Assembly: GCA_018402665.1 (NCBI GenBank)
Contig: JAGYIN010000003.1
Coordinates: 62,001-126,000 of the forward strand
DNA length: 64,000 bases
Reading direction: 5' to 3'
Source of the DNA: Schleiferiaceae bacterium
Lineage (GTDB): Bacteria; Bacteroidota; Bacteroidia; Flavobacteriales; Schleiferiaceae
The position numbers and the translations under genes were made by a program. The first letter of the stretch is position 1. The number at the start of each line of letters is the position of its first letter. The notes below the pieces were generated by a model that worked only from the letters and a program-made list of their open reading frames with translations, did not search any database and had not been told where the DNA came from. This document shows, one piece after another, positions 15,339 through 59,715 of this stretch.

Positions 15339-16199
15339 ATGCCAGTAGTACGCGCTTTACCTGCCTATGAAGTGATGATGGGCGACCACCCATTAAAACA
15401 ACCCTTACCTACACAAAGTGTAGATCAAATTGATCCCTTTTTATTGATCCACCACCATGCGAATCAAGTTCCCGCGGGAACGGATCGTTGGAATGCAGGC
15501 GTTGGTCCGCATCCGCACCGAGGCTTTTCACCCGTGACCTTTATGTGGTCGGGTGGCGTGCATCACAGAGACAGTCGCGGGAATAATAGCATAGTCGATG
15601 ATGGCGGGGTACAGTGGATGGATGCTGGTTTGGGCATCATTCACAGCGAACGTCCGCCGGCAAAATTGGCCGAAGAAGGCGGTATGCAGGAGATCATTCA
15701 AATCTGGATCAATACCCCAAGCGCGCGAAAGATGGACGAGCCGAAATACATGCCGTTACAAAAAGCCGAAATGCCAGAGGTCCCTGGCCATCCTGATTTT
15801 CGGATTACTTCTGGAACCCCTGTCGTTGATGCATCCGAAGGCCCATTAAAATCTTCGTATCCCATTACTGCAGCACACGGAGCCATGGAGGCTGACGTTG
15901 CGGCGACCTTTGAGGTGAAATCTGGAGAAAACGGTTTGCTGTATTTGCTTGACGGCGCAGGACATTTAGAGGGTTACGGTTTGATTGAAGCGCATATGTT
16001 GTACCAGCTCAATGCAGGCACGTATACGTTCACTCCTTCTGAAAAGACGAAGGTGTTCTTTATTGCTGCGGCGCCCATCAATGAGAAGGTGGAGAGTTAT
16101 GGACCTTTCGTGATGACGAATCAGACCGAGATTATGGAAGCCATGCGCGATTACCAGCAAGGTAAAATGGGCTTTTTAGTAGAACGCGATTTACCGTAA
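15339..16199 (+). CDS. Pirin family protein
   Basis: 286 residues, bicupin fold. The N-terminal cupin has the metal-binding pattern HPHRGFSPVTFM (HPHRG at residues 58-62), HHRDSRGN and GIIHSE. Bacterial pirins bind iron or another metal; some act as quercetin dioxygenases or as regulators of metabolic enzymes. Nothing in the sequence tells which applies here. It is a single gene between the glycan operon (66-base gap) and rlmN, with no terminator seen on either side. Confidence 0.93.
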   Translation: MPVVRALPAYEVMMGDHPLKQPLPTQSVDQIDPFLLIHHHANQVPAGTDRWNAGVGPHPHRGFSPVTFMWSGGVHHRDSRGNNSIVDDGGVQWMDAGLGIIHSERPPAKLAEEGGMQEIIQIWINTPSARKMDEPKYMPLQKAEMPEVPGHPDFRITSGTPVVDASEGPLKSSYPITAAHGAMEADVAATFEVKSGENGLLYLLDGAGHLEGYGLIEAHMLYQLNAGTYTFTPSEKTKVFFIAAAPINEKVESYGPFVMTNQTEIMEAMRDYQQGKMGFLVERDLP

Positions 16200-16228: not shown

Positions 16229-16236
16229 TATCTTTG
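16229..16236 (+). promoter_or_regulatory. -7 box of the rlmN promoter
   Basis: TATCTTTG fits the Bacteroidota consensus TAnnTTTG exactly. It ends four bases before the GTG start codon, so the mRNA would begin at or next to the start codon. No clear -33 TTG is visible at the usual distance. Confidence 0.5.
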
Positions 16237-16240
16237 CCTT

Positions 16241-17290
16241 GTGGGAGAAATTAAAAAAGACATTCGTACGCTAAGTCAAGAAGGCATAATCGCCTTCTTT
16301 GAATCGCACGGTGAAAAGGCCTTTAGAGCAAAGCAGGTGTATCAATGGCTTTGGCAAAAAAGTGCCAACAGCTTTGAAGAAATGACGAATCTCAGCAAGG
16401 CCACACGCGAATTGTTGAATGCCCATTTCGAATTCAAGCAGTTGGAGGTGGATGTTATGCAACAGTCGAGCGACGGTACCATTAAGAATGCTGTGAAGTT
16501 GCACGATGGCGCCTTCGTTGAATCCGTATTGATACCCACAGAGAAACGCATTACGGCATGTGTGAGCTCGCAGGTTGGGTGCAGTTTAGACTGCACGTTC
16601 TGCGCGACAGCGGGGTTAAAGCGTATGCGAAATTTAGATCCCGATGAGATCTACGATCAAGTTGTGGTGATTGACCGTCAAGGTAAAGAACACTTCGGCA
16701 GGCCTTTGACGAACATTGTTTTTATGGGGATGGGCGAACCGCTACTCAACTACAATAACGTGCTCGCGGCCATTGATAAAATTACGGACCCAAAAGGGTT
16801 GGGTATGTCCCCAAAGCGCATCACTCTGAGCACGATTGGTGTGCCGAAGCTGATCAAGAAAATGGCCGATGATGGTGTACGATTCGGTCTTGCCATTTCA
16901 CTCCACAGTGCGATTGAAGAAAAACGCGCGAAATTGATGCCTTTAGCCCATCGCAGTACTACACTGGTGGATTTGCGCGAAAGTTTACAGTACTGGTATG
17001 CGAAAACCGGCCGAGGCGTCACGTTTGAATATGTGATTTGGCGCGATATCAACGATACCGAAGAAGATGCCGTTGCATTGGCAAAATTCTGTGGCGCCAT
17101 TCCTACTAAAGTGAACATCATTCAGTACAATCCGATCGATAACGGCCCCTATACACAAGCATCTCAAGCTGCTGTGGATATGTACAAACGCATATTAGAG
17201 GAACGTCGTATCGTCGCTACAGTGCGCCATTCGCGCGGACAGGATATTGACGCGGCATGCGGGCAATTGGCGAATAAAACCGAAGCATAG
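16241..17290 (+). CDS. rlmN: Dual-specificity RNA methyltransferase RlmN
   Basis: Radical SAM enzyme that methylates C2 of adenosine 2503 in 23S rRNA and A37 in some tRNAs. 349 residues. The iron-sulfur motif C-x3-C-x2-C is C114, C118, C121 (CSLDCTFC); GMGEPLLN is the SAM-binding glycine motif; a conserved Cys near residue 340 (DAACGQL) is the one that forms the covalent RNA adduct. GTG 16241 is the only start that covers the conserved KKDIRTLSQEG N-terminus. There is almost no room for a leader between the promoter box and this codon. Its 23S targets are the two rRNA operons further downstream. Confidence 0.95.
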   Translation: MGEIKKDIRTLSQEGIIAFFESHGEKAFRAKQVYQWLWQKSANSFEEMTNLSKATRELLNAHFEFKQLEVDVMQQSSDGTIKNAVKLHDGAFVESVLIPTEKRITACVSSQVGCSLDCTFCATAGLKRMRNLDPDEIYDQVVVIDRQGKEHFGRPLTNIVFMGMGEPLLNYNNVLAAIDKITDPKGLGMSPKRITLSTIGVPKLIKKMADDGVRFGLAISLHSAIEEKRAKLMPLAHRSTTLVDLRESLQYWYAKTGRGVTFEYVIWRDINDTEEDAVALAKFCGAIPTKVNIIQYNPIDNGPYTQASQAAVDMYKRILEERRIVATVRHSRGQDIDAACGQLANKTEA

Positions 17291-19640: not shown

Positions 19641-20836
19641 ATTTTTAAATCTGCTACGACAAAAGTGCTGCCTCCTACAAAGATAAGGTCATCTGCTTTT
19701 GCATGTTGTACGGCCGTTTGTAATGCTTCTTCAACGCTGGAATACGCGGTTCCATGATATCCACTAGATAAGGCTATTTCAGCGAGCGCTGCTGCAGCGA
19801 GCGTTCGTGGACTGCGAGTAGAAGTCCAGTAAAAGGAATCCGTTTTTGGAAATAAGCTCAAGGCTTTGGCATGTTCTTTATCTGCGGCCATTCCTAGCAC
19901 CCAATGGACGTGGTTTGCTGCTTCGTGGGCCTGCTTAACGATGTGCTTCAATGCATGCTCGTTGTGTCCTGTATCGCAAATAATGATTGGGTTGGCGCCA
20001 ATTTGTTGCCAGCGACCTTGTAGTCCGGTATTCTGAATTACTCTACTAAATCCTAGTTCCCATAAGGCACGCTCTTCGGGAAATAATAATGCGAGCGCTG
20101 TGGCGGCGGTATTGCTATTAAACACCTGATAGTTGCCCGTTAAGTCGGTAGCAATATCTAAGGGTGCGCTCCAGAAAAGTGGCGCGTTTTTAGCGCGTGC
20201 ATGTCTTGTAAAAACCTCTTGGGTTTCCGCATGTTTTTCGCCGATAATGACAGGAACACCATCTTTCATAATGCCTGCTTTCTCTGAAGCAATAGCACCT
20301 AAGGTATTGCCGAGCCATTGGGTATGGTCGAGTCCGATGTTGGTGATGATGGTCAATTCAGGAAGGCAAATGTTTGTGGCATCTAGCCTGCCGCCCATGC
20401 CGGTTTCTAAAATAATCCAATCCACAGTTTCCTGCTCAAACCATGATAGGGCCAGCATGGTCGTAAGCTCAAAGAAGCTGAATCCACCGGCCGTGAAGAA
20501 GTCTTTATTTGTTTCCACGAATTGACACACATAGTCTTCCGGGACGAGCGTAGTGCCAATTTTAGCACGTTCTCTAAAGTCAAAGAGATGCGGGGAGGAG
20601 AAGACACCGACACGAAGCCCCATCTCTTTCATTCCTGAGGCAAGCAAATGCACAGTGGAGCCCTTACCGTTGGTGCCTGCCACATGTATGGTTGGTATCT
20701 TTTTACCAGGAAAGTTCAATTCTTTCCATAAGGCCAGCGGACCTTCTAGACCAATTTTATAGTCTTTCGTTCCCCCGTCTCGCTGAAAATTAGGTACTGC
20801 ATCGAACAGCCACTGCACTGCTTGTTCGTACGTCAT
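19637..20836 (-). CDS. folC: Folylpolyglutamate synthase / dihydrofolate synthase
   Basis: Adds glutamate to folates (and to dihydropteroate) with ATP. 399 residues from ATG 20836. The Mur-ligase-type P-loop is GTNGKGST at residues 54-61, followed by SSPHLFDFRER, LETGMGGRLDATN and ITNIGLDHTQWLG, all typical of FolC. The frame is open 21 codons upstream but that part would lie inside tonB; MTYEQAVQWLFDAVPNFQR is the standard N-terminus. Its start overlaps the tonB stop by four bases. Confidence 0.95.
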   Translation of the reverse strand: MTYEQAVQWLFDAVPNFQRDGGTKDYKIGLEGPLALWKELNFPGKKIPTIHVAGTNGKGSTVHLLASGMKEMGLRVGVFSSPHLFDFRERAKIGTTLVPEDYVCQFVETNKDFFTAGGFSFFELTTMLALSWFEQETVDWIILETGMGGRLDATNICLPELTIITNIGLDHTQWLGNTLGAIASEKAGIMKDGVPVIIGEKHAETQEVFTRHARAKNAPLFWSAPLDIATDLTGNYQVFNSNTAATALALLFPEERALWELGFSRVIQNTGLQGRWQQIGANPIIICDTGHNEHALKHIVKQAHEAANHVHWVLGMAADKEHAKALSLFPKTDSFYWTSTRSPRTLAAAALAEIALSSGYHGTAYSSVEEALQTAVQHAKADDLIFVGGSTFVVADLKI

Positions 20837-21693
20837 TGCAATTCGAAACGGTAGACAATAAATCCAACACGACGACTGTTCCCTGCATCTGCACTCCATT
20901 TAGAATTGCGCGCGGCAACCTTCGCTTTATTCACTAGACAGGTATTGGAACCAAAATTAGATTTGGGTAATGAATCCGGAATTTGATTATTTGGAGCGAG
21001 TTCCGCTTCATAAACGCTTCCGGCCTCTGTAACCGCAATTTTAATGACCACGACACCTTCATAATTACAGCCCGTTTCTGGTTCAGGTAAGTTGATAGGC
21101 GTTCCAGACATCCAATATTTACCATTTCCACCAGCTCCGCCGTTCCCGGTTCTGTTTGGACTTAATGGATCGCCGTTGGGGTCGCCTTGATCACCGCCGC
21201 CTGTGGTTTCACCTTCACCTTGGCCTGTTCCATTGCGGGTGGTATTGAACATACGATTCAACCGTTCTTGTTGGCGTTGACGCTCCAATTCTTCTACAGT
21301 GGGCTGAGGATCCGGTTCGGGCTCCTGAACGGTTTCTTTCGGTTTTTCAGTTTCTTCCTTAGGCTGCTCGACCACTTCCTCAGGTGGGGTTGGAGTGGGA
21401 TCATCGGTAGATTCAATAACGGGGGCGTCCTCAACATCCTGGGTAACCACCTTTTCTTGTACTGGTGGAGTTTCTACAGGAGTTGCAGGCGTTGGTGGGG
21501 GAATAGTGGGAGCAGCTTGCGTATTTTGTCCAGCCCCCGTTTCTTCATACCCAAAATTAATTGCAATTCCTTCCTCTGGAGGTGGGTCTTGGTAGGTTAA
21601 GCCATAAAACGCAAACCAAAGCATGAGTAGGATGTGGACGATGACCGTCCAAACCTTTGCCTTGTTTTTATTGCGTTGCTCGTTAAATGCCAT
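20833..21693 (-). CDS. tonB: Energy transducer TonB
   Basis: 286 residues. One N-terminal membrane helix at about residues 14-32, then a long periplasmic stretch rich in Pro, Glu and Thr (about 45-140, with many EPDPQPT-like repeats), a Gly/Asn-rich linker, and a C-terminal domain (EGVVVIKIAVTEAGSVYEAEL) resembling the TonB/TolA C-terminal fold. With ExbB and ExbD directly upstream it should pass proton-motive energy to outer-membrane TonB-dependent transporters. No such receptor is encoded here. It starts two bases after the exbD stop and overlaps folC by four bases. Confidence 0.88.
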   Translation of the reverse strand: MAFNEQRNKNKAKVWTVIVHILLMLWFAFYGLTYQDPPPEEGIAINFGYEETGAGQNTQAAPTIPPPTPATPVETPPVQEKVVTQDVEDAPVIESTDDPTPTPPEEVVEQPKEETEKPKETVQEPEPDPQPTVEELERQRQQERLNRMFNTTRNGTGQGEGETTGGGDQGDPNGDPLSPNRTGNGGAGGNGKYWMSGTPINLPEPETGCNYEGVVVIKIAVTEAGSVYEAELAPNNQIPDSLPKSNFGSNTCLVNKAKVAARNSKWSADAGNSRRVGFIVYRFELQ

Positions 21694-31650: not shown

Positions 31651-31762
31651 GAATTAACCTATGTTTTCAAGCAACAAGTATAAGCAAAAAAAGTACGATT
31701 TGCACTTGCTTGACGTTCCTCTTTAAACGCTTTTTTTAGGCCGATTGTTATCTATTACACAT

Positions 31763-31770
31763 TAGATTTG
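31763..31770 (+). promoter_or_regulatory. -7 box of the porU promoter
   Basis: TAGATTTG matches TAnnTTTG exactly and ends five bases before the GTG start of porU. A TTG at 31745-31747 is 15 bases upstream of the box, shorter than the usual spacing. Confidence 0.5.
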
Positions 31771-31775
31771 TCAGA

Positions 31776-34700
31776 GTGAAAAAAATCATAGCGCTTCTTG
31801 GTGTCCTTTTGTTCCCGATTTTGGTCGCGGGTCAGATGTCCTTTGATACGGGTACCTACGTTCGATTTAAAACCTTAAATCACGGAATTTCTGGACCCCA
31901 ATACGGAAGACAAGCGTCATCTGGCTTGTACATGATGAGTGGTCGAGAGGTTTTAGATTTAGGCATTCTTTCAGAATTGTCTCGGAACGAATCCCTAGAA
32001 ATACGTTGTCGATTAGACGGAACACTTTCTCCGCAAAATAGCGCCAACGAGCCTATAGGCGGTGATTTTTCGATTCCTTACTACATCGTTGATAGCGACT
32101 CCATTGTTGATAATGCTACGGAATTCTGGTTCTACGTGCCGCCGAGCTACACGCTGAATTATGATGCTGCTTCAGGTAAGTCGTTCTACCTTGCTAACCC
32201 ATTCAGCGATCAAAAATACTTCTTAGTCAGTGGCGGGAATACTGCCTACCAGGGCGTTTCTCCAGAAATAGTGCCGGAACAAGACAGTTCTAGAGCATTG
32301 AATGCTCGTGCGAGTTGGGTTTACGATACTGCGATGTACAATCTTGTTGGAACTGGTCGCAGGTGGATGGGTGAATTGTTTGATTTTACGACCACTCGAG
32401 TGTATGATTTTCGCGAACGCACTGCCCTGAATAACTCCGGTGCTAATCGGCCCGTGTCCGGAAGCACAATAAAAGTTCAGATTAAAGCCGTTGCACGCTC
32501 GAGCATCAGCGAGACGAAACTGATTGTGCACTATGGCGCACAAAGTGAGACCGTAACTTTCCCGGCGGTACAAACGGGGTCGGTAAGTAATTACGTGCAG
32601 GAAAAACTGCTCAATGTAGATTTCACTGCAGATCAAAGCACAACGCTTACCATTACCTATGATAAAGCAGGGGACAATGCTGCAGCCATGTGGCTGGATG
32701 AAATGATCGTAGATTGGGAGACCTCGGAGGCAGAGGTATGTCCGAATCAATTTATGGTTAATCAGCCTCGTGGTGCAGGAAACTACTCGTACTTTGAAGT
32801 AGAGGGGAGCAGTTGTTTAAGGATTTTTGGTTTAGAAAATCAACGGATTACCACCCATGTGGAACCCGCGGTTGTAACTTCTCTAGGTCCGGATCGAACC
32901 AGGAGCAAGTGGTATTCTCACGAGGACTTATCCCGAACGTATATGATCGGTGATTGTAATGAGCCACTAGCATATGTGGTGGATGAGAAAGTGAACCTTG
33001 GCGAAATCGGATCGGCAACTTTTACAGATTTGGATGGCATAGCAAGTATCATTATTACCCCCGATTCTTTACTCCATGCTGCAAGTGATCTTGCGGAATT
33101 GGAACGCGCGTCAGGAGTTACTGCTGAAGTGGTTTCACTATCCTATATCTATGATGTAATGAATACGGGAAATCCCGATATCGGCGCCATTAGAAAATTC
33201 CTTGTGAAAGCTTATGCCGATTACAATTCGCTCAAATACCTCACATTGTTAGGTGATGCCTCATATGATTACAAGGGCATACTTTCTGGCGCGAATTCAA
33301 ATGTGGTCCCTACCTACCACACCAATGCGAGTTTCTCGTTGATCACTTCGTACATCACAGATGATTTTTACGGGTATTTGGATTCCGGGGAAAGCGTGAA
33401 TTGGTTTCTGGATGATTTAGATATTGGTATTGGTAGAATTCCAGTACGAACGGTAAGTGAGGCAGAAGAAGCGGTCGCGAAAATTGCAAATTACATGACG
33501 GGGGCCGACCGGTTCGGACCCTGGCGTGCCCGTGGGATTTTTGTGGTGGATGATGCCGATGAACCCTGGGAAAAGGAATTCGCGGTGTATCAAGACCGAT
33601 TGGCAAAAACTTTGGACACGACAAGAGCGGAATTGAATCAAATTAAAATCTACTCCGACGCATATTTGCAGGATACCAAGCCGGGTTCGCAGCGTTATCC
33701 AGAGGCGCGTCAAGCCCTATTCAATGAAGTAGAACAAGGAGCTTTAGCCGTTTCCTTTGTTGGTCATGGGGGTGAGGTAGGATGGACTACTGAACGCATA
33801 TTGCAATTGGAAGATATCAACGGATGGAATAACACCTCGAAGCAGCCGGTCGTTACGACTATTACTTGTGAATTTACCCGATTCGACGATCCCTTGCGCG
33901 TCAGTGCTGGTGAACAATTGTTTTTGAATCCAAACGGTGGAGCTATAGGGTTGTTTTCGACCACTCGAAGTGTTTTTGCAACCAACAGTACGTATGCATT
34001 GAATGCCTTGTTGAATGAGGAAATGATGCAATTAGACAACCCAAGATTAGGCGATGTCCTCCGAGAAACGAAAAACAACAACAATAGCGGGGATAAAATT
34101 AAGTTTTCACTCATCGGTGATGCTGCCTTACCACTGGCGCGTCCAAAACATCAAATGAGTTTCGATACCCTAAACGGTATGGCCTGGTCGGATTTTCAAG
34201 ATACGCTGAAAGCGCTTTCATGGGTGCAAATTCAGGGCAGTGTGCGGGATGTACAGAGCGGATCGTTGTTGAATAATTTTAATGGAAAAGCTTGGGTGAC
34301 CGTCTTCGATAAGCCGCAAATGCAACAAACGAAGGTGAATGATCAAAGTGGCACGCCGTTTAATTTTACGACACAAAACAATGCCGTGTTTAAAGGCCAA
34401 GCCAGCGTGGTGAACGGGCGGTATACCGTGGCTTTTAGAGTTCCTTTAGATATTAATTTGAGTTACGGTCCTCCAAAGATCAGTGCCTACGCTACAGATT
34501 ACGAGACGGACGCTTGGGGCGCTTCGAACGACCAATTAATGGGTGGTATTTTCGACGGCCTTATCACGGATACGGAAGGTCCTGAGGTGCGGTTGTTTAT
34601 GAATGATACTGCGTTCATCCCGGGCAGTAGTGTTGAATCGGATGCCACTGGCCTGGGTTTACTTTACGATGAAAGTGGAATCAATGCCGTGGGCTTGGGA

Positions 34701-35225
34701 ATCGGCCACAACATGACCCTTACATTGGATGGGGAGGCAATCAATGTGAACGATTATTATGAATCGGATTTAGATGATTTTACGCGTGGATCGTTGCGTT
34801 ATCCATTCAATGACCTTGCATTAGGCGAACATACCTTGTCCCTGCGCGCTTGGGACGTTCTGAATCAATGGGGTTACGACAGCATTGCGTTTGTTGTAAT
34901 AGAACCCAGCACTCCCATTTTAGAGCAGTTGCTCGCTTTTCCAAACCCCTTCACGGATCAGGTAAAATTCCAATTGACCCATCAAGAGCAGGGCGAAGAG
35001 GGCGAGTTAAAAGTTTCCGTTACGAACAATCAGGGCCAATTGGTTTGGCAACGCACACAAACCTTGCGTTTAAATGATGCTACAACACAGTTGCCTACCT
35101 TTACCATGTCGGAACAACCGGGTCAAACTCCCGGGGCGGGATTTTATTCTGTACGGGTGGAATGGACGCGATTAATTGATGGAAAATCGGCTACAATACA
35201 AGAAAAGCTCATATATATACGTTAA
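31776..35225 (+). CDS. porU: Type IX secretion system sortase PorU
   Basis: 1149 residues. PorU cleaves the C-terminal sorting domain of type IX cargo and attaches the cargo to surface lipopolysaccharide. A signal peptide starts at GTG 31776 (MKKIIALLGVLLFPILVAGQ). The gingipain-like C25 protease domain has the catalytic His at 664 (FVGHGGEVGW) and Cys at 698 (TITCEFTRFDDP). The C-terminal part has beta-sandwich domains and ends LIYIR. The signal peptide fixes the start. porV follows after 26 bases. Confidence 0.94.
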   Translation: MKKIIALLGVLLFPILVAGQMSFDTGTYVRFKTLNHGISGPQYGRQASSGLYMMSGREVLDLGILSELSRNESLEIRCRLDGTLSPQNSANEPIGGDFSIPYYIVDSDSIVDNATEFWFYVPPSYTLNYDAASGKSFYLANPFSDQKYFLVSGGNTAYQGVSPEIVPEQDSSRALNARASWVYDTAMYNLVGTGRRWMGELFDFTTTRVYDFRERTALNNSGANRPVSGSTIKVQIKAVARSSISETKLIVHYGAQSETVTFPAVQTGSVSNYVQEKLLNVDFTADQSTTLTITYDKAGDNAAAMWLDEMIVDWETSEAEVCPNQFMVNQPRGAGNYSYFEVEGSSCLRIFGLENQRITTHVEPAVVTSLGPDRTRSKWYSHEDLSRTYMIGDCNEPLAYVVDEKVNLGEIGSATFTDLDGIASIIITPDSLLHAASDLAELERASGVTAEVVSLSYIYDVMNTGNPDIGAIRKFLVKAYADYNSLKYLTLLGDASYDYKGILSGANSNVVPTYHTNASFSLITSYITDDFYGYLDSGESVNWFLDDLDIGIGRIPVRTVSEAEEAVAKIANYMTGADRFGPWRARGIFVVDDADEPWEKEFAVYQDRLAKTLDTTRAELNQIKIYSDAYLQDTKPGSQRYPEARQALFNEVEQGALAVSFVGHGGEVGWTTERILQLEDINGWNNTSKQPVVTTITCEFTRFDDPLRVSAGEQLFLNPNGGAIGLFSTTRSVFATNSTYALNALLNEEMMQLDNPRLGDVLRETKNNNNSGDKIKFSLIGDAALPLARPKHQMSFDTLNGMAWSDFQDTLKALSWVQIQGSVRDVQSGSLLNNFNGKAWVTVFDKPQMQQTKVNDQSGTPFNFTTQNNAVFKGQASVVNGRYTVAFRVPLDINLSYGPPKISAYATDYETDAWGASNDQLMGGIFDGLITDTEGPEVRLFMNDTAFIPGSSVESDATGLGLLYDESGINAVGLGIGHNMTLTLDGEAINVNDYYESDLDDFTRGSLRYPFNDLALGEHTLSLRAWDVLNQWGYDSIAFVVIEPSTPILEQLLAFPNPFTDQVKFQLTHQEQGEEGELKVSVTNNQGQLVWQRTQTLRLNDATTQLPTFTMSEQPGQTPGAGFYSVRVEWTRLIDGKSATIQEKLIYIR

Positions 35226-49998: not shown

Positions 49999-50033
49999 TT
50001 TGGACGTTATTGAGCCATTATTGTTTAAGTTTA
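49999..50033 (+). promoter_or_regulatory. Possible promoter of the porin-like gene
   Basis: TTTG at 49999-50002 and TAAGTTTA at 50026-50033 (one base off TAnnTTTG), 23-base spacer; the box ends seven bases before the ATG. Confidence 0.4.
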
Positions 50034-50040
50034 CGCCTGT

Positions 50041-51978
50041 ATGAGGCCATATCTACTTTCATTATTCGTATTGCTCTCAACCTCAATGGTTGGCCAAGTG
50101 GATTCTACTTTACTTGAGGATATTGATACCTTGGTTTCATTACCGAACACCGGAGTTAAAGTGGATGGCTATAGATACGTTTCGTATCCATATAATAGCA
50201 AGGGGTATTACCTATACCAAATAGATCGCTGGGATTCGTTGACAGTGCTGTTGGACAGGAAAGCGGAGGACGAGATTTGGTTGCAGGATTCATGGAATTG
50301 GACCGAAAGGGAAAATTCTGCTATTGGTGGACTTTCTTATAATTCCTTACAGCCCATAGTGAATTCCGGGTTAGACGGTTGGCATAGATTTTCCAAAAGC
50401 TATTCGGAGATGCCACGCGATTTTCGTTCGTCCTCTCCTCGTTCGGATTTGCGACTTCATACCGGTATAGGTGGTGGGCAAGTCTTTGGTATTACGGCAC
50501 TCTCACCGGTTGATTCAACTAAACAGTTGTACGTCGATTACTTACGTAACAATACTTTGGGATTGTTTCGTAATGAAGGTACAGATGGCCATGAGTTGCA
50601 TTTTTCGATTAAGCAATTGGATTCTTATAATATTTGGACGCAAGCGAAATTGGAGGTGGCTTATTTCAATTCGAGATCAGGTCAGAATGGAGGGTTGTCT
50701 AGTCCGACTCTATTCGAAAGTAATGTGCCCACACTGAGGCGGAATTTCGCCGTTAACGATGGTGAAGGATTGCTTTTTGAAGAGGAATTAGACATTAAGT
50801 ATTGGGCTAGGTTGGACGCATTGGGTTCTCCAAATTTGAATGGTAGTATATCGATTAATTCAAAGAGTTGGGCTGTGAATAATTCTACCTCGGCAGCCGA
50901 ATACTTCTGGGACAGTACAGGTACAGCTCCAACGGTAAAGCAACGTACTCTGAGGTATTCTGATTCTTTGAGGTTGACCAAAGTGCAGGTGGACTTTTCT
51001 CATAGCCTTGCATTAAATGGTCCAATAAGACGGCCTTTTCCAGGCTTTATTGAGACTAGTTTGGCCACGGGTTTAGAGCATTTGCAGAGTAATTCCTTGG
51101 GATGGGATGGATTTAGAAGAGATTCGGTTCATTTTACGCAAGCCTTTGATTCGGATGTTAGACCCTTTGTTCGAGGTCGTATCATGCTTGGGAACATCTC
51201 CATACAGAGTTTTAAATACAGGGCCATATTCAATTTCAATGCCTTGGGATACAATGCCGGTGCATTTGATGCCTCGGTTAGCGCGAAGTTCTTTTCTGTA
51301 CCAGGGGAATTATCACTACAATGGAACATTTTACGCCAACCTCAGATGTACCGATTTGAGCAGTTGTACGGCCATTCGTACGACTTAAGATCCATTGATG
51401 TGCCCTATTTTAAAAATGAGGGAAAAGCACATTGGATTTTGGGTGAGAAATGGATAAAGGAAGGGGTAGTCTACGGTGCACAGATGAGCGGTATGCGCTA
51501 TTTCGAATCCTTTGACCAATTATCTACTTGGGACGGTTTGTATAGCAGGATTCAGTTTGGTGTACGCAGTGATGAAGAGGGATGGAATGCCTGCGTTCAA
51601 GGATATGGCGCCTACAAATCTTCGTTTGGAGGATTTGCTACACCGAATTGGGGCGGATTCACAGAAGTGAATTACAAAACCAGCATAGGGACGAAGTTTG
51701 AATGGAAGGCCGGTATAAACGTAAGTATGGAAGATGCTTTCTATACACCAACGTATTTAGTGGGTGTCCCTATTTGGGCCATGCAAACCGATTATTTAGC
51801 AGGGAGTTATCCTTGGGCAACAGCTTACTTTGAAGCACGAATAGCGAATTTTATCGCAGGCGTGAGAGTCGTAAATGCCCTAGAGGGATTAACAAATTAC
51901 AATTACTATGCTTTCGGTGCAACACCAAGGACGGACCGTTGGGTTCAACTGAGTGCGCGCTGGACCTTGTTCAACTAG
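50041..51978 (+). CDS. Putative outer-membrane porin-like protein
   Basis: 645 residues. Signal peptide (MRPYLLSLFVLLSTSMVGQV). The N-terminal 140 residues are variable, then long amphipathic beta-strands (LRLHTGIGGGQVFGI, FVRGRIMLGNISIQSFKYR, WVQLSARWTLFN) suggest a large barrel whose last residue is aromatic-Asn. The length and pattern match the putative porin family of Flavobacteriia; no TonB box or plug domain is seen. It stands alone after the second rRNA terminator and ends four bases into the convergent gene. Substrate unknown. Confidence 0.75.
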   Translation: MRPYLLSLFVLLSTSMVGQVDSTLLEDIDTLVSLPNTGVKVDGYRYVSYPYNSKGYYLYQIDRWDSLTVLLDRKAEDEIWLQDSWNWTERENSAIGGLSYNSLQPIVNSGLDGWHRFSKSYSEMPRDFRSSSPRSDLRLHTGIGGGQVFGITALSPVDSTKQLYVDYLRNNTLGLFRNEGTDGHELHFSIKQLDSYNIWTQAKLEVAYFNSRSGQNGGLSSPTLFESNVPTLRRNFAVNDGEGLLFEEELDIKYWARLDALGSPNLNGSISINSKSWAVNNSTSAAEYFWDSTGTAPTVKQRTLRYSDSLRLTKVQVDFSHSLALNGPIRRPFPGFIETSLATGLEHLQSNSLGWDGFRRDSVHFTQAFDSDVRPFVRGRIMLGNISIQSFKYRAIFNFNALGYNAGAFDASVSAKFFSVPGELSLQWNILRQPQMYRFEQLYGHSYDLRSIDVPYFKNEGKAHWILGEKWIKEGVVYGAQMSGMRYFESFDQLSTWDGLYSRIQFGVRSDEEGWNACVQGYGAYKSSFGGFATPNWGGFTEVNYKTSIGTKFEWKAGINVSMEDAFYTPTYLVGVPIWAMQTDYLAGSYPWATAYFEARIANFIAGVRVVNALEGLTNYNYYAFGATPRTDRWVQLSARWTLFN

Positions 51979-57895: not shown

Positions 57896-59026
57896 CTACA
57901 ACCGCTGCTCTAATTTTGGCAGTATTTGGTTTTTCCATGACGCAAAATCTCCTGCGATAATGTGTTCACGCGCCTGCTCCACAAGCCAGAGGTAGAAACG
58001 AATGTTGTGTAAAGAGGCAATTTGTGCCCCCAGACTCTCTTTGCTGTGGATGAGGTGACGTACATAGGCTTTGGTATACTGACTGTCTACGAAGCTTGTG
58101 CCGTTCGGATCCAGTGGCTCATGTACGTTCTCCCATTTTTTATTTCGCAGATTTAGGATGCCCTCACTTGTGAAGATTTGACCGTTGCGCCCATTTCTTG
58201 TGGGCATGACACAATCAAACATGTCTATTCCTAAACTGATGTTTTCTAATATGTTCGCGGGCGTGCCAACACCCATGAGATAACGCGGTTTATCCTTCGG
58301 TAGTATGGCACATGCCCCTGCGGCATGCTTGTACATTTCTTCTGCAGGCTCCCCAACACTCAGCCCGCCTATGGCATTGCCGTCGGCATTTTTACGCGCT
58401 ATATATTCCGCACTTTCGTTGCGTAAATCCTCGTAGGTGGAGCCCTGAATGATGGGAAAGAGGGTTTGTTCGTATCCGTAAAGTGGATCCGTTTCATTGA
58501 TTCTATTGAAACAACGGTCCAGCCATCTGTGCGTCATGTGCATCGATTGCTTAGCATAGTCATAGGTGCTGGGGTACGGCGGACATTCGTCAAATGCCAT
58601 AATAATATCTGCGCCGATTTCACGCTGAATGTCCATCACCCGCTCCGGTGTAAACAAATGTTTCGTGCCATCGATATGGCTTGCAAACGTTGCGCCTTCC
58701 TCCGTGATTTTGCGCTGATTCGCGAGGCTATACACCTGATAGCCGCCGCTATCCGTAAGAATGGGGCGGTCCCACCCATTGAATTTGTGCAACCCACCTG
58801 CTGCTTTTAAAATTTCCGTGCCCGGACGTAGAAAAAGGTGGTAGGTGTTTCCCAAGATGATTTGAGCCTGGGTATCTTCTCGTAAATCTTTAGTGTGCAC
58901 CCCTTTAACTGTGCCGGCGGTACCTACCGGCATAAATATGGGTGTCTGAATTATGCCGTGATCCGTCGTAATGGTTCCGGCACGTGCAGCACTCTTTGGG
59001 TCGTTGTGTTCTAAAGTAAATTTCAT
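57896..59026 (-). CDS. tgt: tRNA-guanine transglycosylase lacking the usual zinc cysteines
   Basis: Exchanges guanine 34 of tRNAs (GUN anticodons) for the queuine precursor preQ1. 376 residues from ATG 59026. Substrate-site motifs are intact: ILTDSGGYQVYSLA, GGLSVGEP, GVGTPANILENI and FDCVMPTRNGRNG. In the C-terminal zinc region, most bacterial enzymes have CxCxxC, then His; here the stretch is DPNGTSFVDSQYTKAYVRHL, with Gly, Ser and Asp in place of the three Cys, while the later His (SLHN) stays. QueA, acting later in the pathway, is at 6678. It heads the minus-strand cluster down to 51975. Confidence 0.95.
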   Translation of the reverse strand: MKFTLEHNDPKSAARAGTITTDHGIIQTPIFMPVGTAGTVKGVHTKDLREDTQAQIILGNTYHLFLRPGTEILKAAGGLHKFNGWDRPILTDSGGYQVYSLANQRKITEEGATFASHIDGTKHLFTPERVMDIQREIGADIIMAFDECPPYPSTYDYAKQSMHMTHRWLDRCFNRINETDPLYGYEQTLFPIIQGSTYEDLRNESAEYIARKNADGNAIGGLSVGEPAEEMYKHAAGACAILPKDKPRYLMGVGTPANILENISLGIDMFDCVMPTRNGRNGQIFTSEGILNLRNKKWENVHEPLDPNGTSFVDSQYTKAYVRHLIHSKESLGAQIASLHNIRFYLWLVEQAREHIIAGDFASWKNQILPKLEQRL

Positions 59027-59032
59027 TGTACG

Positions 59033-59040
59033 CAAAAGTA
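59033..59040 (-). promoter_or_regulatory. -7 box of the tgt promoter
   Basis: TACTTTTG on the minus strand, an exact TAnnTTTG match, ends six bases before the tgt ATG at 59026. Confidence 0.5.
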
Positions 59041-59052
59041 CGGCACCCGCGC

Positions 59053-59060
59053 TATCTTTG
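59053..59060 (+). promoter_or_regulatory. -7 box of the rsmG promoter
   Basis: TATCTTTG, exact match, ends four bases before the rsmG ATG at 59065. A TTG at 59026-59028 is 24 bases upstream. Confidence 0.5.
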
Positions 59061-59064
59061 GTCC

Positions 59065-59715
59065 ATGCAAACAGTAGAACTCATCTATTCACATTTTCCG
59101 GATTTGACCGAGCGCCAGCGGGACCAATTCGCAGCACTCCATGACTTATATACGGAATGGAACGCCAAGATCAACGTCATCTCCCGTAAGGACATGGAGT
59201 CTTTCTACGAGAAACACGTCTTACACTCTTTAGGCATCGCGAAGGTGTATTCCTTCCAGCCAGGACAAAAAGTGCTCGATGTTGGTACTGGAGGAGGGTT
59301 TCCCGGTATACCGCTCGCCATTCTTTTTCCGGAGACGCAATTCCATCTCGTGGATTCCATTGGAAAAAAAATCAAGGTAGTTTTGGCAGTGGCCGAAGCT
59401 TTAGGTCTTGAAAACGTTCGTGCAGATCACGGCCGCGCTGAAGAATTTAAAGGGCCGTATGACTTTGTGGTTTCACGTGCGGTGACCCAAATGCAACGTT
59501 TTGTACCCTGGATTAAAGGTAAAATTTCGCAAAAGAACCTGGATCCGGAAAGGGTCAATGGTTTATTGTATTTGAAGGGCGGTGACCTTGCAGAGGAGCT
59601 CGGCACTATGAAGGCTCGTATCTCCAACCTTTCGAATGTTTTCACTTCGGAATTCTTTGAAACGAAAAAAGTCGTCTACCTACCGAAAAGCGAAATCAAC
59701 CAATTTAGAGGATAA
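59065..59715 (+). CDS. rsmG: 16S rRNA (guanine-527-N7)-methyltransferase
   Basis: SAM-dependent methylation of G527 in 16S rRNA. 216 residues from ATG 59065. SAM motif I is VLDVGTGGGFPGIPLAILFP, followed by VDSIGKKIKVV and VVSRAVTQMQRF. The frame is open 13 codons upstream into the tgt start region, but MQTVELIYSHFPDLTERQ is the normal N-terminus. Loss of this gene gives mild streptomycin resistance in several bacteria. It is a single gene closed by a bidirectional terminator. Confidence 0.95.
   Translation: MQTVELIYSHFPDLTERQRDQFAALHDLYTEWNAKINVISRKDMESFYEKHVLHSLGIAKVYSFQPGQKVLDVGTGGGFPGIPLAILFPETQFHLVDSIGKKIKVVLAVAEALGLENVRADHGRAEEFKGPYDFVVSRAVTQMQRFVPWIKGKISQKNLDPERVNGLLYLKGGDLAEELGTMKARISNLSNVFTSEFFETKKVVYLPKSEINQFRG

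Follow-up and report, generated by a model that had tools for sequence, protein, structure and literature searches.

Do some Bacteroidota genes produce mRNAs that begin directly with the start codon? This question is raised by the window studied here, the whole 64,000-nucleotide stretch of Schleiferiaceae DNA that was analysed, in which rlmN, porU, tgt and rsmG carry a −7 box directly before their start codons (Table 1). The sequence-only reading had placed an exact TAnnTTTG box 4–6 nt before each of these four starts, and the coordinates and spacings, read back from the sequence, are all correct. The box is exact in all four genes and is conserved in their relatives. Identities of RlmN, PorU, Tgt and RsmG rest on NCBIfam scores above the curated cut-offs. 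A fifth gene, porin-like and starting at 50041, had been said to show the same arrangement with one mismatch. The single mismatch was found as described, but the spacing is 7 nt and thus falls outside 4–6, and TAnnTTTA at spacing 7, the type to which TAAGTTTA belongs, occurs once genome-wide, which is near background. For this gene the box may be a chance match, and a leaderless reading is only weakly supported, if at all. Leaderless boxes as a group are only mildly abundant in the window (4 observed, 1.8 expected, P ~0.10).

Table 1. Putative −7 boxes, the genes behind them and related features in the window
Feature	Position	Strand	Remarks
−7 box of rlmN, TATCTTTG	16229–16236	+	4 nt (CCTT) to GTG 16241; exact TAnnTTTG
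rlmN, dual-specificity RNA methyltransferase	16241–17290	+	GTG start; NCBIfam TIGR00048; predicted leader 0 nt
−7 box of porU, TAGATTTG	31763–31770	+	5 nt (TCAGA) to GTG 31776; exact TAnnTTTG
Candidate −33 element TTG	31745–31747	+	18 nt 5' of porU box; suggested by the sequence and relatives
porU, type IX secretion sortase	31776–35225	+	GTG start; NCBIfam NF033707; predicted leader 0–1 nt
−7 box of tgt, TACTTTTG	59040–59033	−	6 nt to ATG 59026; exact TAnnTTTG
tgt, tRNA-guanine transglycosylase	57896–59026	−	ATG start; NCBIfam TIGR00430; predicted leader 0–2 nt
Divergent intergenic region tgt/rsmG, 38 bp	59027–59064		contains both outward boxes
−7 box of rsmG, TATCTTTG	59053–59060	+	4 nt (GTCC) to ATG 59065; exact TAnnTTTG
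rsmG, 16S rRNA m7G527 methyltransferase	59065–59715	+	ATG start; NCBIfam TIGR00138; predicted leader 0 nt
Degenerate box TAAGTTTA, porin-like gene	50026–50033	+	one mismatch; 7 nt to ATG 50041; weak, not claimed

Boxes this close to start codons are far more frequent than chance allows. Open reading frames were called in 1.15 Mb of the 1.95 Mb draft host genome and the first ATG of each was taken as the start, which gave 923 usable upstream regions; 300 dinucleotide-preserving shuffles served as the null. At spacing 4–7 the box precedes 32 of the 923 genes, compared to 2.2 ± 1.4 in shuffled sequence (maximum 6), a 14-fold excess that bears out the expectation of a genome-wide frequency above that of shuffled sequence. 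A near-empty valley follows at spacing 8–14 (3 genes, 4.1 expected), and then a leadered class at 15–31 (91 genes, 9.4 expected). The box-to-start spacing in the host genome thus has two modes, leaderless and leadered, that are cleanly separated, and permuted boxes give no spacing peak. It is the position of the box relative to the start, not the number of boxes, that exceeds chance. A plain genome count of TAnnTTTGN(4–6)ATG contrasted only weakly with the reversed pattern (116 versus 91) because many matches sit away from gene starts; it was dropped in favour of counts that took the called gene starts as reference points.

When GTG and TTG starts were added, which changes the gene set slightly, there were 34 candidates: 29 with ATG, 2 with GTG and 3 with doubtful TTG starts. 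That two of the four window genes use GTG had been considered notable. The GTG starts are real, but the proportion is not notable, as the sample is small and the window holds both of the only two GTG cases among the ~34 candidates of the sampled genome. GTG at the leaderless position does recur in independent clades. The A-rich signal characteristic of leaders in the leadered genes is absent from the leaderless class: A is found at −13 to −11 in 55–66% of the former and 25–44% of the latter, a difference that arises partly by construction, since the box fills nearby positions. Positions +6 to +8 are A-rich in the leaderless class. Median codon adaptation is 0.597 for leaderless and 0.625 for leadered genes (P = 8e-5), an indicative value given a reference set of four genes. 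A −33 element shared by the leaderless class was not found, TTG at −33 being not enriched upstream of leaderless boxes in the host sample. RNA-modification genes are not significantly overrepresented among the leaderless candidates (5/34 versus 3/53, P = 0.25). Further host candidates include dnaX, prfB, recF, trmB, dusB, rbfA, pyrE, pyrR and panD; the candidate loci listed are L018:11083, L050:11986, L060:9760, L045:7934, L066:6669, L066:9288, L027:2344, L016:19250 and L064:17502.

The arrangement of rlmN is deeply conserved. Within the genus, 16 of 19 orthologues have an exact box at 4–5 nt, the start codon being GTG in six closely related species and ATG in the others. Among 80 genomes of named Flavobacteriia and Cytophagia, about half have the rlmN box 3–7 nt before the start, including Flavobacterium, Aequorivita, Leeuwenhoekiella (GTG), Spirosoma (GTG) and Mongoliibacter; some Flavobacterium rlmN genes read TAACTTTGCAGCATG, where the box precedes the start by 4 nt. 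In a class-wide sample, 37 of 66 genomes have the leaderless layout of rlmN, as do 27 of 46 families, the spacing usually being exactly 4. Six of these leaderless genes have GTG, only three genes of the sample have an exact box further upstream, and about half lack the exact layout. A set of 136 RlmN rows contains 76 leaderless cases, 52 of them at spacing exactly 4, and all 11 GTG cases are at spacing 4. On the tree of these 136 rows the trait changes 23 times, as compared to 44 with shuffled labels (minimum 36), and is therefore inherited but not fixed. Other families from the same loci behave differently. The queA family is leadered in 28 of 41 cases and leaderless in 1, and a nadE-like family is leadered in 10 of 28 and leaderless in none; the names of these controls were read from N-terminal sequences, not from a family-library search. 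Since the control families differ from rlmN, leader length appears to be a gene-specific trait. Judged from the sequences compared, the leaderless layout is a real and conserved arrangement of a minority of genes, and rlmN keeps it across much of Bacteroidia. RlmN also bears on taxonomy: the protein of a same-family genome (G027) shares 87% identity with that of an uncultured Owenweeksia, which suggests a place for the window in Flavobacteriales, near the family of Owenweeksia.

A polyprenyl-synthetase-like gene lies directly 3' of rlmN in many Flavobacteriia and has its box 5–9 nt, mostly 8 nt, before the ATG (for example L189:12142, L201:12155 and L210:12241). A spacing of 8 predicts a leader of 3–4 nt, in the range that otherwise seems to be avoided.

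The divergent pair tgt/rsmG is fixed within the genus. In all 23 members having the pair the start codons are 38–40 bp apart, with tgt at a spacing of exactly 6 and rsmG at exactly 4. Both the stretch from box to ATG and the middle of the gap vary in sequence among the 23 genomes, i.e. the spacing is fixed while the flanks are free. Because the genes diverge across a 38 bp gap, any longer leader must start inside the opposite gene. The two promoters would have to compete for the same DNA and should exclude each other. For porU, box, 5 nt and GTG are found in 17 of 17 same-genus rows that have GTG, down to ~52% protein identity, and four more members have ATG at 5–8 nt from the box. Upstream of this box TTGTTAT or a close variant is kept in relatives; at window positions 31720–31752, both TTGTTAT and AAACGCTTTTT are mostly retained within the genus. 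These elements may reflect additional regulation, since porU of F. psychrophilum is under an ECF-type promoter (PMC9723704).

A spacing peak at 4–7 beside a valley, together with spacings fixed in relatives, is the placement that leaderless transcription would produce. The boxes would be −7 elements of the Bacteroidota primary sigma factor (sigma-ABfr), with RNA polymerase initiating 4–6 bases 3' of the box. That transcription begins a few bases after the box agrees with work on F. johnsoniae, which puts the start site 4–5 nt past the box, with G at −5 (PMC6847099). By this rule transcription would begin with the A of ATG in rsmG, with the G of GTG in rlmN and with an A or G at the GTG of porU; for tgt it would begin at the ATG or 1–2 nt before it. 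Leaders of 0–2 nt are thus predicted for the four genes. Ribosomes would initiate in the leaderless mode on a 5'-terminal AUG or GUG. If the same offset holds generally, the valley at 8–14 corresponds to leaders of ~3–10 nt, so that genes would use leaders of roughly 0–3 nt or at least ~10 nt and avoid lengths in between. We consider it very probable that transcription of rlmN, porU, tgt and rsmG starts at the start codon or 1–2 nt before it, that the mRNAs are translated in the leaderless mode, and that leader length is a heritable, gene-specific trait.

Several other explanations have to be weighed against leaderless initiation at these genes. It is extremely unlikely that a 6-base motif in AT-rich upstream DNA matched by chance. 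It is true that the window has fewer TAnnTTTG matches overall than its shuffled versions (34 against a mean of 48.7), and that the exact box at 20958–20965 before ATG 20970 is a false positive of the bare pattern, antisense within the open reading frame 20833–21693. Nevertheless, the 14-fold excess at the leaderless spacing and the invariant spacing in relatives refute chance matching for tgt, rsmG, porU and rlmN. Standing beside the start codon, the box also occupies the place expected of a translation signal, and it might serve as such, or as a repressor site, rather than as a promoter. We regard this as very unlikely, as the identical octamer has a second peak 15–31 nt upstream, that of the leadered promoters, and is what experiments have defined as the −7 element (PMC9723704, PMC7366714, PMC6847099).

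Mis-assigned starts, with the true start downstream behind an ordinary leader, could be suspected from the two GTG codons and from an in-frame TTG inside the tgt box. However, RlmN shows conservation from residue 5 onwards and no variation from residue 7 (KRDIR region), sister species have ATG at the position of the host GTG, and Tgt and RsmG are conserved from residues 1–3. In the PorU translation a signal-peptide-like segment directly follows the GTG and would be lost with a downstream start. Orthologue N-termini thus fix the start codons at the predicted places, and mis-assignment is very unlikely. More weight is left for the reading in which the boxes are real promoters but longer transcripts, from read-through or second promoters, are mainly translated and the leaderless transcript is minor. 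A gene on the same strand ends at 16199, 41 bp ahead of rlmN, which may therefore also be read through from it into a leadered mRNA, and many promoters drive secondary transcripts. For tgt and rsmG, on the other hand, the divergent arrangement makes read-through impossible, and in the named set no rlmN has an exact box at 12–45 nt instead. We think this explanation unlikely. For all four genes we retain the prediction of transcript 5' ends at the start codon and 5'-terminal initiation.

Leaderless mRNA as such is already known in Bacteroidota. Mapped shares are 5.5% leaderless transcripts in F. psychrophilum, 3.7% with leaders <10 nt in B. thetaiotaomicron and 13% with leaders ≤10 nt in F. johnsoniae (PMC9723704, PMC7366714, PMC6847099). 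These organisms share with ours the phylum, the −7 box and leaderless or very short leaders, which are predicted here and make up ~4–13% of mapped transcripts there. A weak −33 element has been described for F. johnsoniae (PMC6847099). In our analysis the background-corrected leaderless share of exact-box promoters is ~26% in the host, 25% in a member of the same family and 15% and 4% in two other families of the order; leaderless gene counts outside the host are small (9, 11 and 3), and the comparison is like for like only within this four-genome set. With rlmN and the polyprenyl-synthetase gene behind it left aside, the share in the named loci is ~12% by hand estimate; it is inflated when these two genes are counted. 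Mapped and box-based shares are obtained by different methods. With this in mind, the exact-box share of ~26% differs from the mapped Bacteroidota, and deep conservation of individual genes is not reported in the accessible parts of those papers. A search of the main texts of published papers found no report of leaderless rlmN or of phylum-wide conservation of leaderless genes. What appears to be new is the gene-specific deep conservation and the high share.

Comparison with other bacteria concerns mainly GUG. Mycobacterial leaderless mRNAs have GUG as well as AUG at the 5' end (PMC4633059), the end predicted here; the phylum, sigma factor and promoter are different, and the mechanism was tested with reporters there, whereas here it is predicted from sequence. 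Leaderless mRNAs of E. coli also have a 5'-terminal start codon without a Shine-Dalgarno sequence, but E. coli strongly prefers AUG over GUG, and Bacteroidota in general do without Shine-Dalgarno use (PMC9031893). Mycobacteria use a leaderless GUG start efficiently, whereas E. coli does so poorly (PMC4633059, PMC9031893). The recurrent, conserved GTG suggests by analogy that Bacteroidota resemble mycobacteria in leaderless GUG use. The TA-led (leaderless) genes predicted across bacteria follow the same logic, their promoter box lying ~10–12 bp upstream of the start codon. The boxes searched for in that work were of the TANNNT type, and it classed many genes from Bacteroidetes as 'atypical' (PMC3160421).

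One could go further and propose that leaderless translation in Bacteroidota is not noise but defines a conserved regulatory class. Genes for enzymes modifying rRNA and tRNA would have retained their leaderless start for a long time, rlmN for as long as the class has existed, and synthesis of RlmN, Tgt and RsmG would be such that it depends on and feeds back on the state of the ribosome (e.g. the balance of 70S and initiation factors), with GUG as a true leaderless start. We consider this proposal improbable as a whole. Irrespective of it, the box helps in the annotation of start codons because it pins the start. Bacteroidota do without Shine-Dalgarno use, and these genes could help to show how their ribosomes select the start codon. 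The layout is fixed in the genus and, for rlmN, extends over many families, so that it can be studied in relatives that are in culture (Flavobacterium, Leeuwenhoekiella, Spirosoma), where putative leaderless GUG starts also occur.
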